Shown here in pieces: positions 2 through 38,151 of a stretch of DNA of 38,151 nucleotides. The first letter of the stretch is position 1; each line of letters opens with the position of its first letter. Origin of the DNA: Flavobacteriales bacterium (GTDB lineage Bacteria; Bacteroidota; Bacteroidia; Palsa-965); NCBI GenBank assembly GCA_002737665.1, contig NSIF01000012.1, forward strand, positions 1 to 38,151. The letters are read 5' to 3'. Under the pieces are notes generated by a model that was given only the letters and a program-made list of their open reading frames with translations, ran no database searches and was not told the origin of the DNA. The position numbers were made by a program, and so were the translations under genes.

Positions 2-1033
2 ATATCAAGTTGTTTGGGAACAGCCACCATTTTTAATGATTTATCCGTTCCAACAACTGGTGTAGTTACCAATTGGGTTTGGGACTTTGGTGATGGCTCA
101 CCAATTTCCAACCAGCAAAATCCTTCTCATATTTTCTTAAACGACACTACTTTCAATGTAACGCTTATTGTTACAAATACTGCTGGATGTATTGACACGG
201 TAATCATTCCAGTAATTGTAAGTCCATTGCCAGTAGTTGCATTTTCTGCAGACACTTTGATAGGCTGCCCACTTTTTTGTGTGAATTTCACAGACCTATC
301 AACAATATCTAATGGAGTAATTACTGCTTGGGCATGGGATTTTGGTGATGCTTCACTTCCTTCACCGATGCAAAATCCTTCCCATTGCTATGCTACATCT
401 GGAACTTATTCTGTTACTCTTGTTGCTGTTGGTACAGGAGGTTGCACTTCTACTTTAACTATTCCGAATATGATTACGGTACAGCCAGTACCACATGCTG
501 ATTTTACCGCAACACCTAATCCAACAATTGTCCTAAGTCCTATAGTTACCTTTACCGATTTATCGACAGGAAATCCTTCAACATGGTCTTGGGATTTCGG
601 CGATTTAACATCTGCATTAGATGTTGCGAACACTCAGAATGCACAGTACACTTATTCTGCTGAAGTAGGTGGTGTTTACCAAGTAAATCTTGTGGTAACA
701 AATCAGTTTGGTTGCGTAGATGATACCACAATAGAAATTATTGTTAAGCCAGACTTTGCATTTTTCATTCCAAATTCATTTACTCCAAATGGCGACGGAA
801 AGAACGATGGATTTTTTGGTTCTGGTTATGGAATAACTGACTATCAAATTTGGATATTTGATCGTTGGGGTAATTTAGTCTTTACATCAACTGATATTAA
901 TAAGGAATGGGATGGTACTGTATTGGGTCTTGGCGACGTTGTTCAAAATGATGTCTATGTCTGGAAGGTTATGTTGAGTGATATTTTTTATAAAAAACAT
1001 AAATATATTGGTCACGTAACAGTTATTAAATAA
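2..1033 (+). CDS. PKD-domain surface protein with CHU_C (T9SS type B) sorting domain, 5' partial
   Basis: This is the C-terminal end of a large secreted adhesin-like protein. The reading frame is open to the left edge with no stop, so the TTG at 14 is internal and the true start lies outside the window. About three PKD beta-sandwich modules can be read; each carries a WDFGD-type motif (WVWDFGDGS, AWAWDFGDA, TWSWDFGD) and a C-x-G/Cxx-type strand. The last roughly 90 residues hold the gliding-motility-associated C-terminal domain, recognisable by IPNSFTPNGDGKNDGF, then FDRWGNLVF and WDG. This domain is known to route proteins through the type IX secretion system to the cell surface. Ligand and total size are unknown. 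The next gene starts 41 bases downstream. Confidence 0.92.
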   Translation: MSSCLGTATIFNDLSVPTTGVVTNWVWDFGDGSPISNQQNPSHIFLNDTTFNVTLIVTNTAGCIDTVIIPVIVSPLPVVAFSADTLIGCPLFCVNFTDLSTISNGVITAWAWDFGDASLPSPMQNPSHCYATSGTYSVTLVAVGTGGCTSTLTIPNMITVQPVPHADFTATPNPTIVLSPIVTFTDLSTGNPSTWSWDFGDLTSALDVANTQNAQYTYSAEVGGVYQVNLVVTNQFGCVDDTTIEIIVKPDFAFFIPNSFTPNGDGKNDGFFGSGYGITDYQIWIFDRWGNLVFTSTDINKEWDGTVLGLGDVVQNDVYVWKVMLSDIFYKKHKYIGHVTVIK

Positions 1034-2445: not shown

Positions 2446-4677
2446 ATGAATAAAATAATTGCAGCATTCTTAATTTTTCCATCTGTATTTTTTGCTAATA
2501 CGAATACTGCTATTCATTCAAATTTACTGTTTGAAGAAAATGTAGGACAAGTATCCTGTAAAAATATCAACGCGGAATCCTTAATTCATCCAATTGACGG
2601 CAAGGCCTTACTTTACGAAAATTCGGCCATTCGATTTATTTTAAAAGGCAGTTTACTCACATATTATTTTTCTGATCGAGGATATTCAATTGTGCAGAAA
2701 GATAATTTAGGAAATTTGAATCGAACTGATTTTTATTTTGAAAACGATGTTCGAATTCAACCGATAGGGGAAGTACTACAAAATTCAGCTAGTAATTATT
2801 ATTTAGCATCTGGGCATTTTATTGCAAAAAGGTATTCTAAAATCGTTTATCAAGATATTGTCGGTGGAATTACTTTAGAATTTGCTGTAAAAGGAGATGC
2901 TATTGAAAAAACAATAATTTCAAATACTGCTTATCTTTTTCGGACTAATTTATTTCACAGCGTTGGTTCTATTGTAACGGAAGGTGAAGCAGGAAATCAA
3001 TTACGTTATTCATCTGCTGCAGGTTTTTTTAATGAAACGTTAAGTGCTTCAAAGGTGAATGTTCAAATGTCAATTTCTACAATTAGTTGGCTTACATATT
3101 TGGGTGGAACAAATTCAGAGGATATTTTTGGAATAACGCTTGCTGCTGATAGTGGTGTTGTGGTAACTGGTAGAACAGGTAGTATAGATTACCCAACAAC
3201 TGTTGGATCAATGCAAGATTCATTGTCATTAAGTTATGATGCTGTGATTACACGATTTGATAAAAATGGTATTTGTTTATGGTCAACTTACTATGGAGGA
3301 ACAAATTTTGATGGAGCTTATCAGGTTGTGACCATTGGTTCTTCTTTTGTTATTTGTGGTATGACGAGCAGTACCGATCTTCCTATGCTTGCTCCAACGC
3401 AAGTTGGGAATAATGGAAGCTATGATGCATTTTTACTAATGCTTGATTGGAATGGTCAATTAGTTCGTTCTACCTATTATGGTGGTAGTGGCGGCGACCA
3501 GGGTATTTGTTTGGCAAAAGGACCAGGAAATGAAATTGTACTAGGCGGCTCAGCAACTTCTACCGATTTGCCTTTTGCAAGTTCTGGATTTCAAGCTACC
3601 ATGGCTGGCCAAATTGATGCGTTTCTTGCTGTCTTTGATAATTCTTTGAATGTTATTTGGTCAACTTATTATGGAGGATCTAATTCTGAGGATATTCATT
3701 CACTTTGTATTACACCACAACAAGAAATTGCATTTCTTGGAGCAACGCAAAGTTTTGATTTTCCTATTACTGCTAACGCTTGGCAAATGGGTTTATTAAA
3801 TCAACCTGATAATTATTTGGTCAAATTTGGAATGGATGGATCGCGGCATTATGCCACATTTTTTGGTGGAACAAATATGGAAGACGCCAATGGAATTACA
3901 GCTGATGCAGTTGGAAATTTATATTGTACAGGATTTACTTTCAGTGTTGATTTTCCCACACTCGGAACTATTTTTCAACCCAATTTGCAAGGGCAATCTG
4001 ATATTTATGTTTCTAAATTTGATGTCAATGGTCAATTGGTTTGGTCAACTTTTGTTGGTGGAGCAGGGCAGGACGTAGGTTATGGAATTCATGTTTTAGG
4101 AAAGTATATTTTCATTTGTGGTCAAACGGAGAGTCCTACTTTTCCGGTTAGTGCGAATGCTATTCAATCTGCTTATGCAATGAATGGAGATGGATTTGTT
4201 ATTAAGATGGACACTACAGGACAAATGATTACTGGAACATTTATGGGGGGAAATGGGGGAGATGGACTATTGGCATTAACTGTTGATGCTGATACAAATG
4301 TTATTGCTTGCGGTTCTACTTATAGCACAGATTTGCCTGTACTTAATCCATTCCAATTAATTAACGCAACAAATGGTGATGGTTACGTAGTGAAATTTGG
4401 AATGGCTGAAGAATTACTTTCTACTTCAATCCAAACCATAAACAATAACGTTTCTGTTTTCCCTAATCCTACCAATGATTATATTTTCGTTTCAACAGAG
4501 GGGCGCCGTATTACTTCTATTGAAATAGTTGATGTTTCCGGAAGGACTGTGCTGCTTGATCATTCAAACACTGATTTAATACGTATTGATTGTAAGCAAC
4601 TCGTTAAAGGTGTCTATTTTATTAAGATAACTGAGCCTAATTTAGGTGTTCAAATTTGTCGTTTTGTTCGGAATTAA
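2446..4677 (+). CDS. Secreted SBBP beta-propeller protein with T9SS type A sorting domain
   Basis: This 743-residue exported protein begins with a signal peptide (MNKIIAAFLIFPSVFFANT). An N-terminal beta domain of about 200 residues follows; it has an ENVGQV opening and a YSKIVYQDIVGGITLEF strand and resembles the DUF7948-type region that precedes SBBP repeats in many Bacteroidota proteins, though it is short and divergent. The middle holds seven SBBP repeats, each starting with a variant of TYYGG (TYLGGTNSED, TYYGGTNFDG, TYYGGSGGDQ, TYYGGSNSED, TFFGGTNMED, TFVGGAGQDV, TFMGGNGGDG) and ending in a TDLP/FP turn, enough for a seven-bladed propeller. The last 75 or so residues are a type A sorting domain (VFPNPTNDYIFV, then VKGVYFIKI). 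It is probably displayed on or released from the surface by T9SS. Its binding partner is unknown. Confidence 0.93.
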   Translation: MNKIIAAFLIFPSVFFANTNTAIHSNLLFEENVGQVSCKNINAESLIHPIDGKALLYENSAIRFILKGSLLTYYFSDRGYSIVQKDNLGNLNRTDFYFENDVRIQPIGEVLQNSASNYYLASGHFIAKRYSKIVYQDIVGGITLEFAVKGDAIEKTIISNTAYLFRTNLFHSVGSIVTEGEAGNQLRYSSAAGFFNETLSASKVNVQMSISTISWLTYLGGTNSEDIFGITLAADSGVVVTGRTGSIDYPTTVGSMQDSLSLSYDAVITRFDKNGICLWSTYYGGTNFDGAYQVVTIGSSFVICGMTSSTDLPMLAPTQVGNNGSYDAFLLMLDWNGQLVRSTYYGGSGGDQGICLAKGPGNEIVLGGSATSTDLPFASSGFQATMAGQIDAFLAVFDNSLNVIWSTYYGGSNSEDIHSLCITPQQEIAFLGATQSFDFPITANAWQMGLLNQPDNYLVKFGMDGSRHYATFFGGTNMEDANGITADAVGNLYCTGFTFSVDFPTLGTIFQPNLQGQSDIYVSKFDVNGQLVWSTFVGGAGQDVGYGIHVLGKYIFICGQTESPTFPVSANAIQSAYAMNGDGFVIKMDTTGQMITGTFMGGNGGDGLLALTVDADTNVIACGSTYSTDLPVLNPFQLINATNGDGYVVKFGMAEELLSTSIQTINNNVSVFPNPTNDYIFVSTEGRRITSIEIVDVSGRTVLLDHSNTDLIRIDCKQLVKGVYFIKITEPNLGVQICRFVRN

Positions 4678-9556: not shown

Positions 9557-10516
9557 TTATTTTTTTCTTTCGATTGCTCGTAAAGCCGCAGCAACAATAT
9601 CTTTTGTATCAAGGCCGTATTTAGTCATCAATTGATCTGGCGTTCCACTCTCACCAAAGCTATCATTAACAGCTACCATTTCTAATGGAGTAGGTATTGT
9701 GCTGGTCAGTACATGGGAAATACTTTCACCGAGACCTCCAAATTTATTATGCTCCTCTGCAGATACAGCACACTTGGTTTTTTTTATTGATGCTATGATT
9801 GCTGCTTCATCAAGTGGTTTAATGGTATGTATATTTATTATTTCAGCAGAAATTCCTTGCTTTTGTAAAATTTCCCATGCTTCAATGGCCTTCCAAACTA
9901 AATGCCCTGTAGCAAATATACTTACGTCTGTGCCATCATAAAGTGTAATTGCTTTTCCTATTTCAAATTGCTGGTCAGCTGCAGTAAAATTGGGAACTGA
10001 TGGACGACCAAATCGAAGGTAAACAGGGCCAACATAATCTGCAATTGCAATAGTTGCCGCTTTAGTTTGATTGTAATCGCATGGATTAATAACAACCATT
10101 CCAGGAAGCATTTTCATTAATCCGATATCTTCTAATATTTGATGTGTTGCACCATCTTCACCAAGTGTTAAACCTGCATGGGAGGCACAGATTTTTACAT
10201 TTTTACCAGAGTATGCAACGGATTGTCGTATTTGGTCATACACACGGCCAGTAGAAAAATTGGCAAATGTTCCTGTGAATGGAATTTTTCCGCCGATTGT
10301 TAAGCCAGCTGCAATGCCAATCATGTTTGCTTCCGCAATTCCAACTTGATAAAAACGTTCTGGATGATCTTTTTGAAACGCATCCATTTTTAATGAGCCC
10401 GTAAGATCCGCGCAAAGTGCCACGACATTTGTATTCTTTTTTCCCAATTCAGAAAGTCCTGCTCCAAACCCAGACCTGGTATCTTTTTTTTCCGTTGTAG
10501 TGAATTTATTCTCCAT
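9557..10516 (-). CDS. Transketolase, C-terminal subunit
   Basis: Transketolase moves two-carbon units between sugar phosphates in the pentose phosphate pathway. Here it is split in two; this 319-residue half carries the pyrimidine-binding domain and the C-terminal domain. The glutamate that activates thiamine diphosphate is in FYQVGIAEANMIGIAAG (about 57-73); other hallmarks are TFANFSTGRVYDQIRQSVAY, HAGLTLGEDGATHQ and VYLRFGRPSVP. The start MENKFTTTEKKDTRSGFG is typical for the split form. Unusually, its partner (11926-12774) is not immediately adjacent: a vWA gene lies between them, 5 bases upstream of this start. Confidence 0.95.
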   Translation of the reverse strand: MENKFTTTEKKDTRSGFGAGLSELGKKNTNVVALCADLTGSLKMDAFQKDHPERFYQVGIAEANMIGIAAGLTIGGKIPFTGTFANFSTGRVYDQIRQSVAYSGKNVKICASHAGLTLGEDGATHQILEDIGLMKMLPGMVVINPCDYNQTKAATIAIADYVGPVYLRFGRPSVPNFTAADQQFEIGKAITLYDGTDVSIFATGHLVWKAIEAWEILQKQGISAEIINIHTIKPLDEAAIIASIKKTKCAVSAEEHNKFGGLGESISHVLTSTIPTPLEMVAVNDSFGESGTPDQLMTKYGLDTKDIVAAALRAIERKK

Positions 10517-19648: not shown

Positions 19649-21790
19649 TTAATTTTTAGAAAGTTTACCATAATATTCCAGCTTTTCAGACTTGTATCTT
19701 AAGCTTACAATATAAATTCCATTCGCTAAAAAACGGATATCTATTTTTTGATTCGCAGCAGTTATTTTTTCCGTATGAACTATTTTTCCTTCTAGCGTTA
19801 GTAGGCATAGTTCAGCTTCTGAAAAAATTTCGTTCGGATTTTGAAATGTGAAATAATCATTTGCTGGATTTGGAAAAAGTGTAAGATGCATATTATTAAA
19901 ATTTTCTTCAATGCCAATGCTTGAGTTACAAATGGAACCAGCGAGAATTGTTTCGTTTGGTTTTTCATTGTATTGATATTCCAAAAGTGTGATTCCATTT
20001 ATTGATGAAACAGATATTTTCATCCAACCATAAAAGAAGTCATTTCCTATTTGCATTCTGAATCCAACGAAACCGGTTTGATTATTTAGTGAAGTATAAG
20101 TGGAAGAATATAAAACACCTTGCCCACCACCAATTCTCCATGTACTTGCTGCACCTATTGCAGTGCCTGTAGTTAGAAATTGGATATTGTCACTTGAAAT
20201 TCCTGTGGTTATTATTCCTCTTCCATAATTTTCTAGATAAAATGTATTTGCATTATACCATAAACCATAAAAGCGTGGGACCGGCCCAGCTGTTTCAAAA
20301 CTATTCCATGTTGATGTGGGTGTTGTTGTAATAGTTAATGTTTCACATATTTGTTGCCAAGGATTCTTAAATGATATTCTGAAATTTTTTGTGTTGTTTT
20401 GAACTGCACTCACATTGCCTCCAATAATTGATGCGTTAGTAAATGTTAGTAATATGTTATTTACTGAATTTGATGAGCTGTGGTTTGTTGCTTGGCCACT
20501 AAAATTCATTGTTGCACTTTTTCCATTACTAGCCGTAACAATGGATACTGTTAATCCTGCTGGAACATTCGTAATGTTATAATGTACACCTGCAACTAAA
20601 TTGCCTCCACTGATTGAAAACTGAGTACTTCCACAAGCATAAATACTTATTGGAGGCATTTCAATTGTTCCATTGTTTGCAAGGGCTTCAACTAAATCTG
20701 TTTTTGTATAAGCGAAAAAATCATTTAAAACCACACAGCTATTAGTAGAAAGAGGGTTTAGTAATCCAGTAGCTACTAAATTATCATACTGCCACAACGA
20801 TTGTCTTGATGGCGTTAACAGGGCCGCTTCCATTCTATCATTTTGTTCCATCGTAAAGTTTTTCATACACGATGTATTGTAATCCATGTAGTTTTCCCCA
20901 TTTATTGGTCCTGTGCATGCCGTAACTAAACAGCCCGCACCAGCGTTATCAGCAGGTGGTGTATCTGCACAATAATCTCCATTTCCAGTGCAGCTATTCC
21001 CTTCGAAAGTATGGTATAGATTTAGGTAATGCCCACATTCATGTGTAAAGGTTTGATTAAATTCTAAATAATTATAGGATGAACCACCTTGACCAAAATA
21101 GACATAATTGTAAACCATTCTTGCAGTTCCATTATTGCTCATGAATGTTGATGGGTACCAACACACCCCTGAATTATTAGTCGTATTGTTGGCATATAAA
21201 TCATTCATGATATAAACATTAAAGTATTTGTGATTTTCCCATGCACACGAAATAATTTCATTATCCCAACCACTTCCGTTTCCAAATCCAGATTGTTTGT
21301 CTTGGTAATAGACTACGCCAGTTGTAGGATTTCCTTTTGGATCTATTAGCGCTCTGGCAAAACGAATTTTAGTATAAGATTTTACTCCTGCAAAAATTGG
21401 ATTGACGGTTGAATAATCTGCATCTATACCTGCAAAAGTTAAGTTTAAATCATTTACCGCATAATTTATTTGACTCATGGGAACACCCGCGCTTCCTTGG
21501 GGATGAAAAACATGAAATACAATAGGGATGGTTACGATGCAGGAAGTGTCTGGTAAAATTGAATTTGTATTTATCGGATTTATTAATCGTTCAAGATAAT
21601 TTTTTGTAAAAAGTTTAGTAGAATTTAAACCCTCCTCTGTTGTAATTTGCTGATGTAGTATCTCAATTTCTTTAGCGAGGCCGTGGTCAGCTGACGTTAA
21701 TTCAATTGTGGAAGGTTCTGCTGGAGTTGTTTGCGCTGTGGAATTGCTTGCAAAGCAAATAATTATAATTAATAATTTAATAATTTTCAT
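19649..21790 (-). CDS. Secreted M43-type (PAPP-A-like) zinc metalloprotease with T9SS sorting domain
   Basis: This 713-residue exported protease has a signal peptide (MKIIKLLIIIICFASNSTAQ), a propeptide-like region to about residue 85, and then a catalytic domain. The zinc site is HECGHYLNLYH, with H250, E251, H254 and H260; the methionine turn is NYMDY (300-304). Both are typical of cytophagalysin-type M43 proteases. After about residue 320 come beta-rich domains (an Ig-like or adhesin-like part rich in T, S and N) and, in the last 80 residues, a type A T9SS sorting domain starting LTLFPNPANDYFTF. It is presumably secreted to degrade extracellular protein. The gene follows the glycosyltransferase at a 110-base gap in the same direction. 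Confidence 0.93.
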   Translation of the reverse strand: MKIIKLLIIIICFASNSTAQTTPAEPSTIELTSADHGLAKEIEILHQQITTEEGLNSTKLFTKNYLERLINPINTNSILPDTSCIVTIPIVFHVFHPQGSAGVPMSQINYAVNDLNLTFAGIDADYSTVNPIFAGVKSYTKIRFARALIDPKGNPTTGVVYYQDKQSGFGNGSGWDNEIISCAWENHKYFNVYIMNDLYANNTTNNSGVCWYPSTFMSNNGTARMVYNYVYFGQGGSSYNYLEFNQTFTHECGHYLNLYHTFEGNSCTGNGDYCADTPPADNAGAGCLVTACTGPINGENYMDYNTSCMKNFTMEQNDRMEAALLTPSRQSLWQYDNLVATGLLNPLSTNSCVVLNDFFAYTKTDLVEALANNGTIEMPPISIYACGSTQFSISGGNLVAGVHYNITNVPAGLTVSIVTASNGKSATMNFSGQATNHSSSNSVNNILLTFTNASIIGGNVSAVQNNTKNFRISFKNPWQQICETLTITTTPTSTWNSFETAGPVPRFYGLWYNANTFYLENYGRGIITTGISSDNIQFLTTGTAIGAASTWRIGGGQGVLYSSTYTSLNNQTGFVGFRMQIGNDFFYGWMKISVSSINGITLLEYQYNEKPNETILAGSICNSSIGIEENFNNMHLTLFPNPANDYFTFQNPNEIFSEAELCLLTLEGKIVHTEKITAANQKIDIRFLANGIYIVSLRYKSEKLEYYGKLSKN

Positions 21791-26864: not shown

Positions 26865-27473
26865 ATGAAAATCGTAGCTCTAATCTTTAGTTTCTTTTGT
26901 TTTACTTCAGTTGCTGTAGCTCAGTCGCTTGGAACTGGTAGTGTAGCGGCTTATCCCAAAGACATGGTTTCATTTATTGTTGATGAGCAAGGCGAAACTT
27001 ATGTAAAAATCATGAATTATACTTGTGTTATTACTGCCGAAAAATCTTTTGCAAGCGCAAAAGAAAAACTGAAGTGGGATAAATTGAAGTATGATGTGAA
27101 GAAAGCTTATCCCTATGCCGTAATGGCTAAATTGAAATTAGCGGAAATGGATGCTCAACTTGTTTATGTAAAGGGTGAGAATAATAAAAAAGAATTTACT
27201 AAAGCATGTGAGAAGGAATTGACAAGACAGTTTTCAGGTGACATGCGAAATTTGACTTTTTCTCAAGGTAAAATACTTGTTAAATTACTGGATCGTGAAA
27301 CAGGATCAACAACTTATCAAATTATAAAAGAACACCGTGGTTCATTCACTGCATTCATGTGGCAAAGTGTTGCTGGCTTATTCGGAAATAATCTGAAAGC
27401 TAATTATGAGCCATTGGGTGATGATGCGAACATCGAAGCGGTGGTTGACCTAATTGAATTGGGCGTAATTTAA
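26865..27473 (+). CDS. DUF4294-family exported protein
   Basis: This 202-residue protein starts with a signal peptide (MKIVALIFSFFCFTSVAVAQ). The rest matches the Bacteroidota-specific DUF4294 pattern: KLKYDVKKAYPYAVMAKLKLAEM, then KACEKELTRQFSGDMRNLT, LVKLLDRETGSTTYQIIKEHRG and FMWQSVAGLFGNNLKANYEP. The family is of unknown function and almost confined to this phylum; a periplasmic location is inferred from the signal peptide. It is separated from accC by 122 bases and from prmA by 256 bases. Confidence 0.92.
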   Translation: MKIVALIFSFFCFTSVAVAQSLGTGSVAAYPKDMVSFIVDEQGETYVKIMNYTCVITAEKSFASAKEKLKWDKLKYDVKKAYPYAVMAKLKLAEMDAQLVYVKGENNKKEFTKACEKELTRQFSGDMRNLTFSQGKILVKLLDRETGSTTYQIIKEHRGSFTAFMWQSVAGLFGNNLKANYEPLGDDANIEAVVDLIELGVI

Positions 27474-28573: not shown

Positions 28574-31500
28574 ATGGTAAAGTGTTTTCGTATTTATTTC
28601 TTTATTTTTATTGTGCTATCGAGTTTTACATGTAAACTCAATGCTCAGATAATGCCTAAGAGTTTTCAAGATGACCATGTTAAATTCATTACAGAACTTC
28701 GTGACTTTTTTGAAAGTTACGAAGGGAAAGAAGGGAAAGAGTTTATCAATCAATTTAGTGAGGAGTTCTGGGTTTCCAATTTTTTAAGTCAGGATATGAA
28801 AGAGGCGATGTATTTAAATTGCAACCAGATGTGTAAAAAGAAATTTCGGCCAAAGCCGGAATATTATTCTTACATCAACACCATCAAGACACTTGCCAAA
28901 CAAAATATTTCTGGCGTTGCTTTTGCTGAGTGGCAGGCATGTTTCACAAGTAGTGCAAATGGTCGCTTGAATAAACCTTTTAGCGATTTTATTAGCATGA
29001 GTGAATCTCTTTTTATTGAGAATAAGTTTTATAAAACAGCATCTGGTTTTTGGGAAGTCATCGGTGGTTCTTGGCAATTTATTTGTGATTCAGTACCGTC
29101 AATAGAATTTTCTGATGTTACTATTCAAGGTGTCGCGAAAAATGATAGTACTACTATTTACAATACAGAAGGCACCTATTTTGTCAATTCTGGAATGTGG
29201 GTTGGGCGAGGGGGGAGAATCGATTGGGAGCGGGCTGGATTAAAAGAAGAAATCTATGTAGATTTAAAAAAATACACTTTTGCTGTTAAAGGATTTTCCA
29301 TTGTAGCTGATTCTGTAACATTTATAAATCAAATTTATTTTAAGGATAAACCACTTCAGGGAAGACTTTCAGAAAAATTAATTGCTGACGCACAAGAGAA
29401 ATCGGCTTCTTTTCCTCGTTTTGAATCTTACAGTTCTAGGTACCAAATTAAATCGATGTACCCGAATGTTGATTATGAAGGTGGATTTACTCAAGTGGGA
29501 GCAAAATTTATTGGTAGTGGGTCAAAAGATAATCTCGCTTTTTTTATTTTTAAATTTTCCGGTAAAAATTTCCTGAAGGTATCTTCCCAGAGTTTTTCAA
29601 TTTCAAAAGGTAAAATTACAAGTCAGAATACAGCTATAAAATTTTCCCTCGATGCTGATTCTATTGTACATCCTTCTGTTGACTTTAAATATTTTATTGA
29701 CAGCGCTCGTGTTGTAATCTACAGACCTGACGCTGGGGCATCTCAAGCTCCTTTTTATGATTCTTTTCATAAAGTGAATTTGTTTGTTGAGCAAATACAA
29801 TGGCAAACGAATGAGCCCACAATTTTCATGAATACAATTATTGGTTCTTCGGTTGGGAAAGCGTCATTTCCTTCTTCTGATTATTACCGTCAATATTTAT
29901 ACGATGGATTACAAGGAATGGACCCCGTTCATCCTTTAATTAAAATCCGAAATTTTGTTCGTGATGTAAACGCAGGAATTAGAACTTTCACGATGTTAGA
30001 TCTTGCTATTTATTGGAAAATTGGTCCAGAACAATTAAGACCCGTGATTATGGAACTTTCAAACCAGGGTTTTGTTTTTTATGATCCTAAAACGGATGGA
30101 CTTACTTACCTCGACAAATGTGACACTTACATTGCTGCACGCGCAGGGAAAAAAGATTATGATAATATTATGTTTAATTCTAATGTCATTGCTGGTTCTG
30201 CAAATGCGAAAATTAATTTATTAAATTATGACATGACACTTTTTGGAGTTAAAGAAGTGGCATTAAGCGATTCGCAAAATGTAACAGTTTTCCCTGCAAA
30301 TGATATGTTGGTATTGAAAAAGAATAGAAATTTTACATTTGAAGGTTCCATAATTGCAGGTCGTTTTGATTATTATGGAAAACTATTTGCTTTTGATTAC
30401 AGTACTTTTAAATTGAGTTTAAATAATGTAGATTCAGTTCGTATTTGGGTTGACACAGAACAGCACGATCAGAAAGACCCCAAAAACGGTTTTATTCAAA
30501 TGAAAGTGAAAAGTGTCATTGAAAATTTAAATGGTGAGTTGAAAATAGATGATCCTTCTAATAAATCAGGAACACAAAATAAAAAATATGCCCAGTATCC
30601 TGTTTTTACAAGTGCAAAACCATCTTTTGTGTATTACGACAAGCCAGGTGTGCAACGAGGAGTCTATAATAGAGATAAATTTTATTTTAAGTTAGACCCA
30701 TTTTCCATTGACAGCTTAGATAATTTTGTGAATGCTTCTTTGCAGTTTGGTGGTATATTTCAATCAGCAGGGATTTTACCTGAAATTCGTGACACCTTGC
30801 GTTTGATGCCCGATAAATCACTTGGCTTTGTGCGAAAAGCTCCATTAGCAGGTTATCCATTGTATGGTGGAAAGGCAAAATTTACAAGTGAAATACGATT
30901 AAGTAATCGAGGTTTGCGTGGCGATGGAGAAATAGCTTATATCACTTCAACGAGTACATCCAAAGACTTTATTTTTTTTCCAGATTCGGTCAATGGCACC
31001 GCACAACGTTTTGTTATGCGAGAGCAAAATGCAACGAATCGAACAGAGTATCCACAGGTTAATGGAACTAAAATTTACATTCATTGGATGCCCAAAGAAA
31101 ATTACATGAATGCTACTAATAAAGATTCTTTATTTGCTTTATTAAATGGCCAGGCAACAGCTAAGGGTACACTTACGCTTTCACATAGAAATGTGTTTCT
31201 AGATGGGAAGCTGTTCTTAGCAAATGCAATTTTAGAGTCGAGAAGAAATATAATTAAGCACCATATATGTGATGCTGACAGTGCTGATTTTAGTCTCAAA
31301 TCTGTCGAACTGTCTGGACTCGCTTTTGATACTAAGAATTTTAAATCGCACATCGATTTTGAAAAACGAAATGGAACATTTTCATCAAATGGAGATGGTT
31401 CATTGGTAGAATTTCCAGTCAATCAGTACGTCTGTTTCATGAATAATTTTAAGTGGTTCATGGATAAAAGCGAATTGGAATTAGGAGGTGCTGAAAATGC

Positions 31501-33118
31501 AAAATCTGGAAATGATCAAATTGATCTTGATGGGCCAGAGTTTATATCTGTACATCCAAAGCAAGATTCTTTGCGATTTAGGGCACCACGAGCAAAGTTT
31601 GACTATAAAAATTATATAATAAATGCTTTTGAGGTAAAGGAAATTAATGTGGCCGATGCACAAATTATTCCTGATAGTGGTCATGTTACTATTCTGAAAA
31701 AGGCCTATATGGAAAAATTGTATGGTGCACAAATTAATGCGAATACAGTAACTCAATTCCACCATCTTTTTAATTGTATTGTAGATATCTATTCTAGAAA
31801 AAATTACCTCGCTTCAGGCGATTATGCATATGTTGATGAATTGAAAAAAGAACAAATCATTCATTTTGCAAAAGTTGTCCCTGATACTGCTGGTCAAACT
31901 TATGCCGATGGTCTAATTGCAGATTCTTCAATGTTTTATTTGAGTCCAGCTTTTGATTTTCGTGGTAAGGTTATTTTAGCAGCAAATAATCCATTTCTTA
32001 TTTTTGAAGGAGCAACTTCTTTGAATCATGATTGTGCAATAGGAAAAAGCAAATTATATTTTAGTGGACTAATTGATCCAGATGAAATTTACATTCCCGT
32101 TCCAAAAAATCCTGTAGATAATACTGGTGCTCCGATTTCATCGGGTTTAATGAGTACAGTTTTAGCTGATTCAGTACATATTTATGGCTCATTTTTGTCA
32201 AACAAATTGGGAAAGACAGATGTTAATGTTGTAACTGCCGATGGTTTTTTGTTTTTTGATAAGGCAGCTCGGGAATACCGAATTGCAAATAAAGAAAAAT
32301 TGGTTGAGCGCTCACTTCCTGGAAATTATGTTAGTTTGAATATAAAAAATTGTACAGTTTATGGCGAGGGTAAAATGGCTTTAGGTGCAAGTCTTGGTAA
32401 AGTTTTTCTAAATCCATATGGAAATGCCACTTACAATACGGTTAAACATACTAGCTTTTTTGATCTTGTGTTGGGGCTTGATTTTTATATCAACGACAAA
32501 GCAATGGATTTGTTAATTGAGGACATAAATAACTCAACAAGTTTAACTGGAGTTGATCCAGCTCGAGAAACTTTTCAGAGCGCATTGAATGAAATGGTGG
32601 GTAAGGATAAAGCAGATAAGCTCATTTCACAGTTATCCATTTATGGTTCGTATAAGAAGTTTCCAGATGAGTTGAAATACAACATGTTTTTTACAGATTT
32701 AAAAATGAATTGGAATCAAAAAACCAAATCGTATATTTCTGATGGTAAAATTGGTTTGGGTAGCATTGGTAAGGAACAGATTAATAAGTATTTAACAGGT
32801 ACTATAATGTTAGAACGAAAGCGTACAGGTGATGTACTTACCATTTATTTTGAGTTGGATAACAGTAAATGGTATACATTTAGCTATGCCAATGGTGTTA
32901 TGCTTTGTTATTCATCAAACGAAAAATTTACTACACTTATTAAAGATTTAAAGGATGACGATAAAGTGGCACCAGATGGGTTTGACAGCGAACGATTAGG
33001 TGACAACAAAGTGCGGTATAAATTCACAGCAGGAAGTCCGAATGAGCGTAATCTTATGCTTAAAAAGTTGAAGAGGGCTGGAGATGCTGAAGTAGAGAGC
33101 GGATCAGATGATAAATAG
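28574..33118 (+). CDS. Unrecognised 1514-residue exported beta-rich protein
   Basis: I do not recognise a named family. The protein has a signal peptide (MVKCFRIYFFIFIVLSSFTC, cleavage likely near NAQ at 23-25; the Cys at 20 could alternatively suggest a lipoprotein). A helical N-terminal domain (26-140) has C-x3-C (CNQMCKK). Residues about 190-450 and 540-1300 are dominated by alternating beta strands with short turns, such as FTFEGSIIAGRFDYYGKLFAFD at about 590-610. A short segment near 473-512 (AIYWKIGPEQLRPVIMELSN) looks like a winged helix. The C-terminal 200 residues resemble a beta-barrel edge or sandwich and end in a K/E/D-rich tail with no T9SS domain. It is 10 bases after prmA and 7 bases before plsY. 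The layered strand pattern suggests a periplasmic or outer-membrane scaffold, possibly OstA/LptA-like; that is inference. Confidence 0.85.
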   Translation: MVKCFRIYFFIFIVLSSFTCKLNAQIMPKSFQDDHVKFITELRDFFESYEGKEGKEFINQFSEEFWVSNFLSQDMKEAMYLNCNQMCKKKFRPKPEYYSYINTIKTLAKQNISGVAFAEWQACFTSSANGRLNKPFSDFISMSESLFIENKFYKTASGFWEVIGGSWQFICDSVPSIEFSDVTIQGVAKNDSTTIYNTEGTYFVNSGMWVGRGGRIDWERAGLKEEIYVDLKKYTFAVKGFSIVADSVTFINQIYFKDKPLQGRLSEKLIADAQEKSASFPRFESYSSRYQIKSMYPNVDYEGGFTQVGAKFIGSGSKDNLAFFIFKFSGKNFLKVSSQSFSISKGKITSQNTAIKFSLDADSIVHPSVDFKYFIDSARVVIYRPDAGASQAPFYDSFHKVNLFVEQIQWQTNEPTIFMNTIIGSSVGKASFPSSDYYRQYLYDGLQGMDPVHPLIKIRNFVRDVNAGIRTFTMLDLAIYWKIGPEQLRPVIMELSNQGFVFYDPKTDGLTYLDKCDTYIAARAGKKDYDNIMFNSNVIAGSANAKINLLNYDMTLFGVKEVALSDSQNVTVFPANDMLVLKKNRNFTFEGSIIAGRFDYYGKLFAFDYSTFKLSLNNVDSVRIWVDTEQHDQKDPKNGFIQMKVKSVIENLNGELKIDDPSNKSGTQNKKYAQYPVFTSAKPSFVYYDKPGVQRGVYNRDKFYFKLDPFSIDSLDNFVNASLQFGGIFQSAGILPEIRDTLRLMPDKSLGFVRKAPLAGYPLYGGKAKFTSEIRLSNRGLRGDGEIAYITSTSTSKDFIFFPDSVNGTAQRFVMREQNATNRTEYPQVNGTKIYIHWMPKENYMNATNKDSLFALLNGQATAKGTLTLSHRNVFLDGKLFLANAILESRRNIIKHHICDADSADFSLKSVELSGLAFDTKNFKSHIDFEKRNGTFSSNGDGSLVEFPVNQYVCFMNNFKWFMDKSELELGGAENAKSGNDQIDLDGPEFISVHPKQDSLRFRAPRAKFDYKNYIINAFEVKEINVADAQIIPDSGHVTILKKAYMEKLYGAQINANTVTQFHHLFNCIVDIYSRKNYLASGDYAYVDELKKEQIIHFAKVVPDTAGQTYADGLIADSSMFYLSPAFDFRGKVILAANNPFLIFEGATSLNHDCAIGKSKLYFSGLIDPDEIYIPVPKNPVDNTGAPISSGLMSTVLADSVHIYGSFLSNKLGKTDVNVVTADGFLFFDKAAREYRIANKEKLVERSLPGNYVSLNIKNCTVYGEGKMALGASLGKVFLNPYGNATYNTVKHTSFFDLVLGLDFYINDKAMDLLIEDINNSTSLTGVDPARETFQSALNEMVGKDKADKLISQLSIYGSYKKFPDELKYNMFFTDLKMNWNQKTKSYISDGKIGLGSIGKEQINKYLTGTIMLERKRTGDVLTIYFELDNSKWYTFSYANGVMLCYSSNEKFTTLIKDLKDDDKVAPDGFDSERLGDNKVRYKFTAGSPNERNLMLKKLKRAGDAEVESGSDDK

Positions 33119-33125
33119 GAAATAG

Positions 33126-33782
33126 ATGACAACAACTGGTATTATTTGTTTAGTGTTATCTTATCTTATCGGATCTATTCCGACTGCTGTTATCATTAGT
33201 AAATTAGTTTATAAAATTGATATTCGTGAATACGGAAGTGGCAATCCTGGTGCTACGAATACCTTTCGTATTTTAGGAAAGAGAGCCGGGTTAACTATTT
33301 TATTATTTGATATTTTTAAGGGGTGGATAGTTGTGACTCTTGCTTGTTATGTTTCGCAAGCGCCCCCACATTCCCAGGATTTTGTAAATCTTAATATTTC
33401 CTTTGGTGTTGCATCGGTATTAGGACATGTTTTTCCCATTTATATCGGCTTTAAGGGGGGAAAAGGCATTGCAACTTTATTCGGAGTCGTTTTAGCTATC
33501 CATCCTTACGCCTGTTTAATGCTAAATGGCGTTTTCTTAATTGTTTTTCTACTTACACATTATGTTTCTTTAAGTTCAATTTGTGCTGGAATTTCCTTCC
33601 CATTTATTCTTATTTTCATTTATGGTAATAATATTGTTCCTTCAATGGTAATTTTTTCTTGCTTTGTGGCTTTGCTTGTTTTAGTTACACATCAGAAAAA
33701 TATAGAACGCTTACTTAGAAGACAGGAATCAAAGATTTTTATATTGAAAAAGAACGGAAACGGACCAACTCAAAGTTCATAA
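33126..33782 (+). CDS. plsY: Acyl-phosphate:glycerol-3-phosphate acyltransferase
   Basis: PlsY is an integral inner-membrane enzyme that moves an acyl group from acyl phosphate to glycerol-3-phosphate, the first step of phospholipid synthesis. The 218-residue protein shows the three family motifs: SYLIGSIPTAVI with REYGSGNPGATNTFR (about 35-49), GHVFPIYIGFKGGKGIAT (about 101-118), and the later THYVSLSSI region, among five or so hydrophobic segments. It starts 7 bases after the giant exported protein and has a slightly longer polar C terminus (QESKIFILKKNGNG) than the shortest relatives. Confidence 0.95.
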   Translation: MTTTGIICLVLSYLIGSIPTAVIISKLVYKIDIREYGSGNPGATNTFRILGKRAGLTILLFDIFKGWIVVTLACYVSQAPPHSQDFVNLNISFGVASVLGHVFPIYIGFKGGKGIATLFGVVLAIHPYACLMLNGVFLIVFLLTHYVSLSSICAGISFPFILIFIYGNNIVPSMVIFSCFVALLVLVTHQKNIERLLRRQESKIFILKKNGNGPTQSS

Positions 33783-33949: not shown

Positions 33950-33981
33950 TTGACAATAAAAATAGTTTTCGGCTATTATAA
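33950..33981 (+). promoter_or_regulatory. Possible sigma-70-like promoter for the TPR/PD40 gene
   Basis: TTGACA (33950-33955) is followed after 18 bases by TATTAT (33974-33979) overlapping TATAAC, ending just before the ATG at 33983. A second TTGACA occurs at 33904-33909. The primary Bacteroidota sigma factor prefers TAnnTTTG, so this may be chance in AT-rich DNA. The 200 bases between plsY and this gene hold no other feature. Confidence 0.2.
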
Positions 33982-33982
33982 C

Positions 33983-36900
33983 ATGCGTATTAGACAAATT
34001 TTAACTTTTGTTTTTATTACTTTGGCGGTAGCGCTATTGCCATGTCAAATTTATGCACAGGTTCAAACGGAGGCTAAAGTAATTGCGGATGCAAATGAAA
34101 AATTTGAACGAGAAGATTACACTTCTGCCATGCCTTTGTATTCCCAGTTACTTTCTAATGACAAAAACAATGCGAATTATAATTACCGCTATGGTGTTTG
34201 TGTTCTTTTTGCAAGTGCTCAAAAAGAAAAAGGATTGCAGTTTTTAGAAATAGCGTCCAAATTTGCGGATGTTGATGGAACAGTTTGGTTTTATTTAGGG
34301 AAGGCTTATCATTTAAATTATCAATTTGAAAATGCAATTGGAGCATATTCTAAATTTAAATCTGTAGTTGGGATTAAGAAAGCTGCTAAATATAAGGTTG
34401 ATAATGAAATTGAGATGTGTAGAACGGGAACTCAATTACTTCAAGCCATTACAGACATTACTGTTTTTGATAAAGCAGAATTAAATGAAACTGATTTTTT
34501 TCGACGGTACGATTTAAGTAGTTCAGATTATAGTGGAAAGCTTTTAGTAAAGCCCGATGAGTTCAAAACTTCTCTGGATAAAAAGAAAGGCGAACAATCT
34601 GTTATTTTTCTATCTGCTGAAAAAGATGAATTGTATTTTGCATCTTATGGTACCGATGCTACAAAAGGGAAGGATATTTTTGTGGTACATAAACTTTTTA
34701 ATGGAACTTGGGATAAGCCGGAGAATTTAGGATTTCCAATTAATACAGAATACGACGAAGATTTTCCATTCATGCATCCTAATGGAAAAATTTTATATTT
34801 TTCTTCAAAGGGTCCGAATAGTATGGGTGGTTATGATGTATTTCGATCTGCGTTTGATGAAGAAACTAACACTTGGGAAAAGCCAGTTAATTTAGATTTT
34901 CCAGTTAATTCTGCTGATGATGACATCATGTTTGTTAGTGATTTAACTGAAAAAACAGCATGGTTTGCATCTAGCAGGAGTAGTCCTGATGGAAGGATGG
35001 TTGTTTACCATGTTGTTGTGGAACGCAAACCAATTAATGTTTGTTTGATTTCTGGAACTTTCACATCAACCGATGGCGATCCTAATCGTGTAGCAAAAAT
35101 TACGGTAAAACTTTTTGATTCAAATGAACTAATTGGAGAGTATTATTCTAGTGAGGCAACAGGAGCGTATATGATTAGTCTTCCTAAAAGTGGTGGAAAA
35201 TATTCTTTTACTGTAAAGCACAGCGGTATTGCAGATCAAACAGAAATTGTTTCAATTCCTGCTCAAGGAAAAATAAAAGCAATCAATCAAAAGATAGGTT
35301 ATGCTGATGTTAATAATGAAACGAAATTAGTCATACAAACTAATTTTGACACAGACATATCTTTAATTAACCCAACTTTTTTAAAAGACAAGGCTAATTT
35401 GGATTTAACTCCTGTTGCCTCGCAAACTGAGCCTGTTGTAGTTGAAAGCCAGAGCACTGATATTTTAATTGAAGATGCTTTAGTAGTTGATCCTGCGGCC
35501 AATGTTCCTTCATCAAGTTCACGAGTAGGGAATGAAGAGTTGGTTAAGTCTGCCAATGAAGATGCACTCGCTACACAAACTGAAGTAATTGAACTCGAGA
35601 ATCAGAAGGCACGAGTTTATAATTACGCAGCACAATTAAATGTGCAGACAAAAATAAAAAAAGCAGAAGTAGTTCAAGCTAAATCTCAAGCCGATGCGAT
35701 GGCTGAAGGGCCAGGTAAAATTGCTGCAAATGAAAAGGTAGCTGAATTGCAGTCACAAGTAAATGCCTTACAAGCTCAAACTACTGCCGCGACCACTATC
35801 GGGAATGCTTTAGAAACTGATGTAAAGAATAAAAAGTTGGAAGCGAATAAAGCCAAACAGTTTTCAATAAGTATTGCTAACGCTGTCAAATCGAAGGATA
35901 CAAAAGTAATGGACGAGGCATTAAAACAGCAAGTAGAATTGGAGGCATTGTCAGGGATTCGATCTGAAGGAGATTTGACTGCAAAGAATATACAGGAAGA
36001 AGCAGAAAAAAAACGAACTAAGTTTGAAGTAGAAAAAAATAAAACGCAGGACTTAAAAGAAGAAATAGCAGCGAATCAAACTCGGATTGATCAATTGAAA
36101 ATAGAGCAAGCTAAAGAGAAAGATAATGACTTGAAAGAAGGAATAGCTTTTCAAATCGAAGGGATTAACGATGATATCAACGCTAATAAAAAACAATTAG
36201 TAGTTGTGGAACAAAATCTTAAAAATTCAGAGAACCAGTACAACGATTTAGCTAATCAATCAAAGGCGGCAAATGAAGCGATTGTAGAATCAAAAAATCC
36301 TTCTAATTCAAGTGTTGCGATGAATGCTATTGATAAAAAAGCTTTGGAAAATGATGTTAAGATTTACCAACAAACTATTTCTGAAATAGGTGTTTTAAAT
36401 ATATATGCACCTATAGTAAGTAAAAATCCTATTAGTACTAATCCAGTTGTTGAAGTCAATAATACTAAGCCAGTCACTGAATCGGACAAAAATTCTAATG
36501 TGAACTTTGCCAAGTCAATTCAAGATTTAGATAAGGTAACTGATCCTGTTGTACGCAATAACGCGAAAGCCAAAGTTTATAATGAGTGGGTGGCAAGTTT
36601 GGACGAACAAATAAGTGAAACAAAGCAAGAAATTGCTGGTACATCCGATAAGAAGAAAAAGGAAGAGTTAAATGTTGAATTAAAAAAATTACAAGCGGAA
36701 TCGATTCAAAAAAAACAAGATTCAAAACAGAGTTTGCTTGCTGTTGAAAATTCAAATAAGGGAAAGGATGCAGCTATTATTAGGATTGAAGATAAATATA
36801 ATCAACAACTTACAGTAGCTGAAAAAGAAACAGACGTAGTTGTAAAGGGAAATTTAAAAGCGCAAGTGTATAATGAGTGGGCCGATTCTTTAGAGTCAAT

Positions 36901-38151
36901 TGCAATTGCTAGAGAAAAGAGTGTACTTAAAATAAAAAATATAGCAGCACAGGAAAAAGCCAAACAAGAAATAATGGCTTTTAAAGTTGCAGCTATGGAA
37001 AAAAGGAATTTGGCCGAAGATGCTATTGGTAAACCTGTAGAAGCTGTTGTAGCTACTGCACCAATAACACCAACAATGAAAGATCCGGTTGGACCAATTT
37101 TAAATTACAGTGATCCGATTGCGAAGCAAGCCATTGAGGAGCAAAGAATATTATTATCCAAAGCAGAACGTAATAGAATAAATAAAGATTCTTTAACACA
37201 ACTTGCAAATGCTACTGCTGGGGCGAAGCGGACACAGCTTTTGTCGCAAGCAACAGAAGAGCAGCGTCAAGCATGGAATAAAGATTCGGAAGCTGCAGCT
37301 AAACTTGGCGAAGCAGATAAAATTCAGTTTGAAAAAAATAATACACTTTTAAATTCATTTGAAGTTCCACAATCAAATAGTTCGAATGATTTAGTTTCGA
37401 AATCTGCAGTACTACTAAAGGAGGCGAACACTTTTTTTGAAAAAGCGAAAGAGGATCGCGCCATGGCTACAACTGCTACTACTAATTACATTAGAGCCAG
37501 CGCACTTAAAAGTGCAGAAGAGAATGAAAATAAAGCCATTCAAAAACAACAAGATGCTATTAAGTTGTATCAGGAAAATGGATTTGTGGTATTGGATGAA
37601 TCTATCATTGCAGTTCAAAATCCTCCCTCATTACCGATTGAAACAACGAATACACCCGTTGCAACACAAAATGATGTAGCGAATAGCCAGGAAAAAATTA
37701 TAAATGCGCAAACTGGTCAGCCATTATCAATGATTGAAATAAATCAGCTCAAAGCTTCTGGATTATACTTAAAGTATATGGAGGAAACGCAGTTGGCAGT
37801 AAATGCAGAGAAGGAAGTAATTGAATTGAAAAAGTTGGAAGCGAAGTATCAAGAAAAAATAGGATTAAGTATTTCGAAATCTACAGAATTTTCATTACAA
37901 GCTGCTAAAGAGCCCGATCCAGTTAAAAAGAAAAGCTTAACCGCGAAGTCAAATAAATTGAGCAGTACAGCTGCTGCAGATATGAATAGTCGCGATTCAA
38001 TTACTGAGCTTGTTACGCGTGCTACAAAAAAGGCAAATGATATTCGTGAGAAAGAAAAATTGGCTTTAATGAGTATTGATCCAGAGGGTGCTGAAAATAT
38101 TATTGCAATTGCTAAATCAGAACAAAAAAGTAAATCTGTTGCTACACCAGT
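33983..38151 (+). CDS. Giant exported TPR/PD40/coiled-coil protein (PorE-like front half), 3' partial
   Basis: Starting at the ATG, the frame is open without a stop for 1389 codons to the right edge. Signal peptide: RIRQILTFVFITLAVALLPC, then QIYAQ. Residues about 25-135 form TPR-like helices (ANEKFEREDYTSAMPLYSQL, TVWFYLGKAYHLN). Residues about 195-345 contain PD40/WD40-like beta-propeller repeats (DELYFASYG; GKILYFSSKGPNSMGGYDVF; TAWFASSRSSPDGR). Residues about 350-420 look like a carboxypeptidase-regulatory beta sandwich (VCLISGTFTST). This order matches PorE, a periplasmic T9SS-associated protein that ends in an OmpA domain. Here instead about 850 residues of A/K/E/Q/N-rich predicted coiled coil follow, with three copies of an A-x-VYN-(E/Y)-(W/A) motif at residues about 543, 863 and 960. 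Any OmpA domain would lie beyond the window. Confidence 0.9.
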   Translation, partial: MRIRQILTFVFITLAVALLPCQIYAQVQTEAKVIADANEKFEREDYTSAMPLYSQLLSNDKNNANYNYRYGVCVLFASAQKEKGLQFLEIASKFADVDGTVWFYLGKAYHLNYQFENAIGAYSKFKSVVGIKKAAKYKVDNEIEMCRTGTQLLQAITDITVFDKAELNETDFFRRYDLSSSDYSGKLLVKPDEFKTSLDKKKGEQSVIFLSAEKDELYFASYGTDATKGKDIFVVHKLFNGTWDKPENLGFPINTEYDEDFPFMHPNGKILYFSSKGPNSMGGYDVFRSAFDEETNTWEKPVNLDFPVNSADDDIMFVSDLTEKTAWFASSRSSPDGRMVVYHVVVERKPINVCLISGTFTSTDGDPNRVAKITVKLFDSNELIGEYYSSEATGAYMISLPKSGGKYSFTVKHSGIADQTEIVSIPAQGKIKAINQKIGYADVNNETKLVIQTNFDTDISLINPTFLKDKANLDLTPVASQTEPVVVESQSTDILIEDALVVDPAANVPSSSSRVGNEELVKSANEDALATQTEVIELENQKARVYNYAAQLNVQTKIKKAEVVQAKSQADAMAEGPGKIAANEKVAELQSQVNALQAQTTAATTIGNALETDVKNKKLEANKAKQFSISIANAVKSKDTKVMDEALKQQVELEALSGIRSEGDLTAKNIQEEAEKKRTKFEVEKNKTQDLKEEIAANQTRIDQLKIEQAKEKDNDLKEGIAFQIEGINDDINANKKQLVVVEQNLKNSENQYNDLANQSKAANEAIVESKNPSNSSVAMNAIDKKALENDVKIYQQTISEIGVLNIYAPIVSKNPISTNPVVEVNNTKPVTESDKNSNVNFAKSIQDLDKVTDPVVRNNAKAKVYNEWVASLDEQISETKQEIAGTSDKKKKEELNVELKKLQAESIQKKQDSKQSLLAVENSNKGKDAAIIRIEDKYNQQLTVAEKETDVVVKGNLKAQVYNEWADSLESIAIAREKSVLKIKNIAAQEKAKQEIMAFKVAAMEKRNLAEDAIGKPVEAVVATAPITPTMKDPVGPILNYSDPIAKQAIEEQRILLSKAERNRINKDSLTQLANATAGAKRTQLLSQATEEQRQAWNKDSEAAAKLGEADKIQFEKNNTLLNSFEVPQSNSSNDLVSKSAVLLKEANTFFEKAKEDRAMATTATTNYIRASALKSAEENENKAIQKQQDAIKLYQENGFVVLDESIIAVQNPPSLPIETTNTPVATQNDVANSQEKIINAQTGQPLSMIEINQLKASGLYLKYMEETQLAVNAEKEVIELKKLEAKYQEKIGLSISKSTEFSLQAAKEPDPVKKKSLTAKSNKLSSTAAADMNSRDSITELVTRATKKANDIREKEKLALMSIDPEGAENIIAIAKSEQKSKSVATP

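Follow-up and report, generated by a model that had tools for sequence, protein, structure and literature searches.

What fixes a PorE-like protein to the cell wall when no OmpA domain follows its front? The question is raised by the last gene of a contig (NSIF01000012.1, assembly GCA_002737665.1) of a Flavobacteriales bacterium whose genome is 66% complete. The window, i.e., the whole stretch of DNA analyzed, is this complete contig (G000:C4) of 38,151 bases. The gene is an open reading frame (ORF) at 33983..38149, on the forward strand like all of its parts described below, that starts with the ATG at 33983 (a TTG at 33950 is an alternative start upstream), stays open through 1,389 codons without a stop and has the contig end as its only end. 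In PorE-like proteins, it is OmpA, a binder of the peptide stem, that is believed to hold envelope machines to the wall. An earlier note on this DNA had proposed that a coiled coil takes the place of the wall-binding domain. This was an effect of the contig end, as orthologues carry three SPOR domains after the helical region; the absence of a following OmpA domain, also claimed, did hold, none being found in four full-length orthologues. Because the orthologues end in SPOR without OmpA, the wall anchor appears to have been replaced by a triple SPOR tail and not lost.

The comparison drew on regions of up to twenty kilobases surrounding the gene in 20 relatives, and on two loci from a genome scan. 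Among the orthologues that reach a stop, 20 of 21 end in exactly three SPOR-like domains of some 75-90 residues, the frame-broken copy of genus mate G001 included. Since the three domains are present in every one of the five genus mates whose C-terminus is complete, the window copy very likely has them too. Seven proteins were scanned whole against Pfam SPOR (PF05036, cut-off 21 bits), which five exceeded (L058, 35.1; L078, 32.9; L065, 23.5; L067, 29.7; and L077, 47.5 bits) and two (L060 and L062) did not reach. Among single SPOR domains, 16/21 matched Pfam at E ≤ 0.01, and the domain profile matched the SPOR structure of CwlC (1x60, E 1.5e-5). Our own hidden Markov model (HMM) was seeded with the third domain (SPOR3), which it was therefore bound to detect; it found SPOR1 and SPOR2 independently of the seed, and the Pfam matches were obtained without this HMM. 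AlphaFold2 (AF2) drew the alpha/beta order of a SPOR domain in domains 1 and 2 of L078 and in part of domain 3. The Gln that contacts the glycan, Q270 in RlpA (PMC6895207), is kept at beta-1 in 59 of the 62 domains (21/21 SPOR1, 21/21 SPOR2 and 17/20 SPOR3), and an Arg at beta-3 in 21/21 SPOR1 and 21/21 SPOR2. Each of the three domains has a distinct conserved pattern of its own, which points to one old triplication.

We propose, with moderate confidence, that the gene codes for a secreted periplasmic scaffold that tethers an envelope partner to the denuded septal wall. The TPR-PD40-CRD front (CRD, carboxypeptidase-regulatory-like domain), homologous to PorE and to CHU_0125, would dock on this partner. 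A spacer of about 1,000-1,400 residues, formed by helical hairpins and flexible linkers, would give reach, and the three C-terminal SPOR domains, found in the orthologues and expected in the window copy, would bind denuded glycan strands of the peptidoglycan. The protein would then accumulate at places where the wall is stripped by amidases, above all the division site, and hold its partner there. The sequences themselves show the architecture, the orthology, the conservation of the glycan-contacting Gln, the export signal and the hairpin repeat, and binding to peptide-stripped, septum-enriched glycan would follow from the known biology of SPOR domains, which recognize denuded glycans enriched at the septum (PMC6895207). 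The change from OmpA to three SPOR domains would shift the hold of the anchor to stripped glycan, mostly at the septum and, if this is true, some Bacteroidota place a PorE-like scaffold according to division state. A more ambitious version, in which a clade-wide protein of the Bacteroidota (PorE-type front, giant hairpin spacer and triple SPOR) couples the outer envelope or the type IX secretion system (T9SS) to the freshly stripped wall of the division site, seems to us rather unlikely. To our knowledge, no PorE relative has such a division-site coupling job.

Several points weigh against the septal scaffold. The C-terminus of the window copy past residue 1389 lies beyond the contig and is not sequenced; the 3' end of the gene was absent from the other contigs of the genome, where a query made of the C-terminal half of the protein from a genus mate matched the window alone. 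SPOR3 is devoid of the Gln in 3/20 cases, and one orthologue, L079, has no SPOR3. A membrane anchor is present in most SPOR proteins (PMC6895207), whereas a lipobox is found in 0/22 family members and no membrane helix past the signal peptide was seen in the sequence (no predictor was run). Mean AF2 confidence was low (49.5 and 56.3 for two models, both from shallow alignments), and in a fold search with both, no hit reached E ≤ 0.001; the PD40 and SPOR parts had no significant match, and sensible hits came from the TPR part alone. L079 (9983-15799) is a near-copy of L078 in which a low-complexity Asn-Thr-Ser tail stands in place of the third SPOR, probably through repeat slippage or an assembly error.

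The PorE-like front is confirmed by sequence comparison. That the first 420 residues follow the order of PorE, as claimed before, agrees with a collinear match over residues 12-440 between a profile of 22 family fronts and a profile of ten PorE proteins (hhalign 99.95%, E 5e-38). Behind a signal peptide without lipobox (residues 1-25, cut between ...QIYA and Q; 33983..34057), the TPR domain (residues 30-155; 34070..34447) was weak in Pfam but clear when the profile of 22 fronts was compared with solved TPR structures (best E 1.9e-22), and AF2 drew its helices with a predicted local distance difference test score (pLDDT) of about 55-85. A shortened, propeller-like PD40 region follows (residues about 158-350; 34454..35032), recognized by Pfam (23.3 bits versus a cut-off of 20.9), by hhalign to PorE and by blade count. 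The CRD (residues 354-455; 35042..35347) stayed under the Pfam cut-off of CarboxypepD_reg. In the AF2 model, built from four sequences, the TPR helices and the beta strands of the CRD were drawn, and the PD40 part had low confidence. This part has ~190 residues versus about 270 in PorE (PMC7192894), i.e., it is about a third shorter, a stretch of ~80-100 residues of PorE being missing. An iterated blade model found two full PD40 units in the window (217-266 and 271-320); some relatives had an additional half unit or partial unit, whereas PorE showed about four stretches and other paralogues as many as six. Thus, of the beta-propeller that the earlier note had put at one end of the protein, the PD40 repeats are present, but with only two full units and low AF2 confidence there, a complete, closed propeller is not shown.

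The helical region extends from residue 514 to the contig end (residue 1389; 35522..38149). Its description as a coiled coil of at least 850 residues was right in that it is helical and charged, with few aromatics and little Gly. However, one continuous coil had to be dropped: heptad periodicity (a hydrophobic period near 3.5) was not significant in nearly all segments of 84 residues, and AF2, which covered the region to residue 1020, gave antiparallel hairpins (514-572/577-637, 663-711/715-769 and 855-886/890-925) with confident pieces, the hairpins being separated by weak linkers. The third hairpin matches a repeat of ~72 residues, with two copies in the window (residues 842-913, 36506..36721, and 939-1011, 36797..37015; iterated HMM and blastp self-match) and one to four in relatives (iterated HMM). 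Taken together, the region resembles antiparallel helical hairpins strung one after another, with a repeat of ~72 residues. With 0.15 nm for each residue, one coil of 850 residues would measure ~125 nm, several times the usual depth of the periplasm, so that the rod spanning the periplasm as one coil, suggested previously, is disfavored and the hairpin string is also the more sensible reading. Protein identity with genus mates is ~50% over some 810 residues and continues well into the helical region, which indicates that this region is coding. Full-length orthologues in relatives have 1,800–2,600 amino acids (aa), and we expect the window ORF to represent the front two thirds of an envelope protein of about 2,000-2,250 aa.

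Using a membership threshold of E ≤ 1e-70, the family was found in 66 of 128 related genomes and in 2 of 158 genomes spread over the phylum. Orthologues appeared at E 2e-124 or better; among the matches listed, the others were an additional partial copy in G055 and proteins with tandem fronts. The genome scan provided only four loci, from Flavobacteriales and Crocinitomicaceae metagenome-assembled genomes, one of them a paralogue. In a tree of the fronts, a branch (95/75) set the 22 members apart; canonical PorE (100/99) was distant, and their nearest neighbors were proteins of about 930-1,000 aa with two tandem fronts. Three such proteins (L084, L085 and L086, on G008:C42, G041:C83 and G044:C27), of 926-1,001 aa, have tandem TPR-PD40 fronts and end within the second PD40 part. 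The genome of the window also codes, on G000:C49 (L051:190-2166), for a 658-aa TPR-PD40-CRD paralogue that ends in one SPOR (25.7 bits, cut-off 21). It has the same module order as the window family, with SPOR exactly at the position of OmpA in PorE, and differs in the single SPOR, the lack of a long helical region and a beta-1 Gln replaced by Val. Judging by these architectures, wall-binding ends can be exchanged within the superfamily, whose members end in OmpA, in a single SPOR, in three SPOR domains or in no such domain.

PorE itself (PG1058 of Porphyromonas gingivalis, a T9SS protein; NCBIfam T9SS_PorE, NF052230) shares with the family the TPR-PD40-CRD order, export and, considering the family orthologues, a wall-binding domain at the C-terminus. 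The family differs in having three SPOR domains where PorE has OmpA_C, a helical region that adds about 1,000-1,400 residues, a shorter PD40 part and a separate clade; moreover, PorE is an outer-membrane lipoprotein and the 22/22 family members are without lipobox. The window protein scored 88.5 bits with NF052230 (cut-off 600), which truncation does not explain because the front and the CRD are complete. A second PorE in the genome, for which the earlier note had advised looking, does exist: L048 is a separate PorE of the OmpA type. It has no lipobox either, so the lipobox is a weak criterion in this clade. Among 59 genomes compared, most carriers of the family have a separate match to OmpA-type PorE of several hundred bits, and the idea that the family replaces PorE was rejected on this account.

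The alternative that survives best, although we consider it unlikely, is an accessory T9SS part whose PorE-like front would bind T9SS components and whose tail would fix that machinery to the wall via SPOR instead of OmpA. The collinear homology with PorE and the T9SS cargo in the window speak for it, and P. gingivalis PorE was pulled down with Sov (PMC8754138). Among the 128 related genomes, 123 have SprA, carriers and non-carriers alike, and of the five without it, four also lack the family gene, which counts in favor of this reading. Yet about half of the SprA-positive genomes are devoid of the family gene, and SprA, being near-universal, was discarded as an uninformative co-occurrence test. 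The conserved neighborhood consists of housekeeping genes and contains no T9SS gene, most carriers keep their own OmpA-type PorE, and the family forms a clade separate from PorE, with other paralogues closer to it. Besides, CHU_0125, which belongs to the architecture class of PorE, has been described as an envelope-integrity protein (PMC5891637). The T9SS connection made by the earlier note finds no support in this evidence, and a link is unproven. T9SS cargo is present in the window, as had also been pointed out, with type A sorting domains at 2446-4677 and 19649-21790 (50.1 and 27.2 bits, cut-off 23); two of the three cargo genes reported were confirmed in this way and the third was not found among the ten window proteins scanned. 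In such genomes, T9SS cargo genes lie dispersed, so their presence here says little about a T9SS link. Among the papers available to us, a search found none linking SPOR domains with the T9SS in such an anchoring sense.

Less probable still is a general tether between the outer membrane and the wall, of the CHU_0125 or Pal kind, that would hold the outer membrane in place around the entire cell and use SPOR as an additional module for wall binding. The best NCBIfam match of the window protein was indeed CHU_0125_OmpA (NF053607; 98.3 bits over residues 205-472), and deletion of CHU_0125 in Cytophaga hutchinsonii damaged outer-membrane integrity with no division defect (PMC5891637). CHU_0125 has a similar TPR and PD40 front. 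However, the match is far under the cut-off of 620 bits; CHU_0125 is a protein of 656 aa with an OmpA_C end (PMC5891637) and no helical spacer, while the family has neither lipobox nor OmpA, and the ligand of SPOR is concentrated at the septum and not evenly spread (PMC6895207).

We find it improbable that the protein is a divisome regulator of the FtsN, DamX or DedD kind, recruited to the septum by SPOR and stimulating wall synthases or hydrolases by its helical region or front. SPOR proteins (FtsN, DamX, DedD, RlpA and CwlC) have, like the orthologues, a C-terminal SPOR with the conserved glycan-contacting Gln, and DamX and DedD are described as stimulating wall synthases (PMC7642682). In these proteins, though, SPOR is usually a small unit attached to a membrane anchor (PMC6895207) or to an enzyme, whereas the family has three SPOR domains, preceded by a TPR-PD40-CRD front and a helical spacer of giant size. 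The sequence gives no sign of a transmembrane anchor, no division genes adjoin, and absence from about half of the related genomes is not expected of a core divisome part. Finally, an artefact, i.e., a long frame made by misassembly or frameshift with the true gene ending near residue 480, is hardly credible despite the missing gene end in the window and a frame break in G001, being already refuted at the family level by orthologues that keep front and helical region in a single frame (19/20 relatives with the triple-SPOR tail, G001 the exception) and by protein identity that carries on over the junction. The earlier note had named a frameshift-corrected stop close to residue 480 as a refuting outcome, and none is there. 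In G001 (L061 around 10290-10420, G001:C52), the break falls between front and helical region at about residue 486-509 and leaves products of 509 and 1,646 aa.

The gene order around the family gene is conserved (names assigned from sequence): tpiA, prmA, a 1,500-aa protein, plsY, the family gene, a clpS-like gene, an M48 lipoprotein, nfeD and a floA-like gene. In L076, L077 and L071, the M48 lipoprotein, NfeD-like and flotillin-like (FloA) genes lie downstream in the same order; in L077 and L071 they are preceded by the ClpS-like gene. Within the window, plsY (glycerol-3-phosphate acyltransferase; 33126..33782, forward strand) is the conserved upstream neighbor according to the gene-order clusters, and the second is an unannotated exported protein of 1,514 aa (28574..33118, forward strand), with no NCBIfam family and a weak Pfam match only. 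This protein was found in 111 of the 128 related genomes, usually two genes upstream of the family gene. Its co-occurrence was rejected as a signal: it is present in all 66 carriers but in most non-carriers as well. Farther upstream, at 26865-27473, the window codes for an exported 202-aa protein that has no NCBIfam match and is kept upstream of prmA in genus mates.

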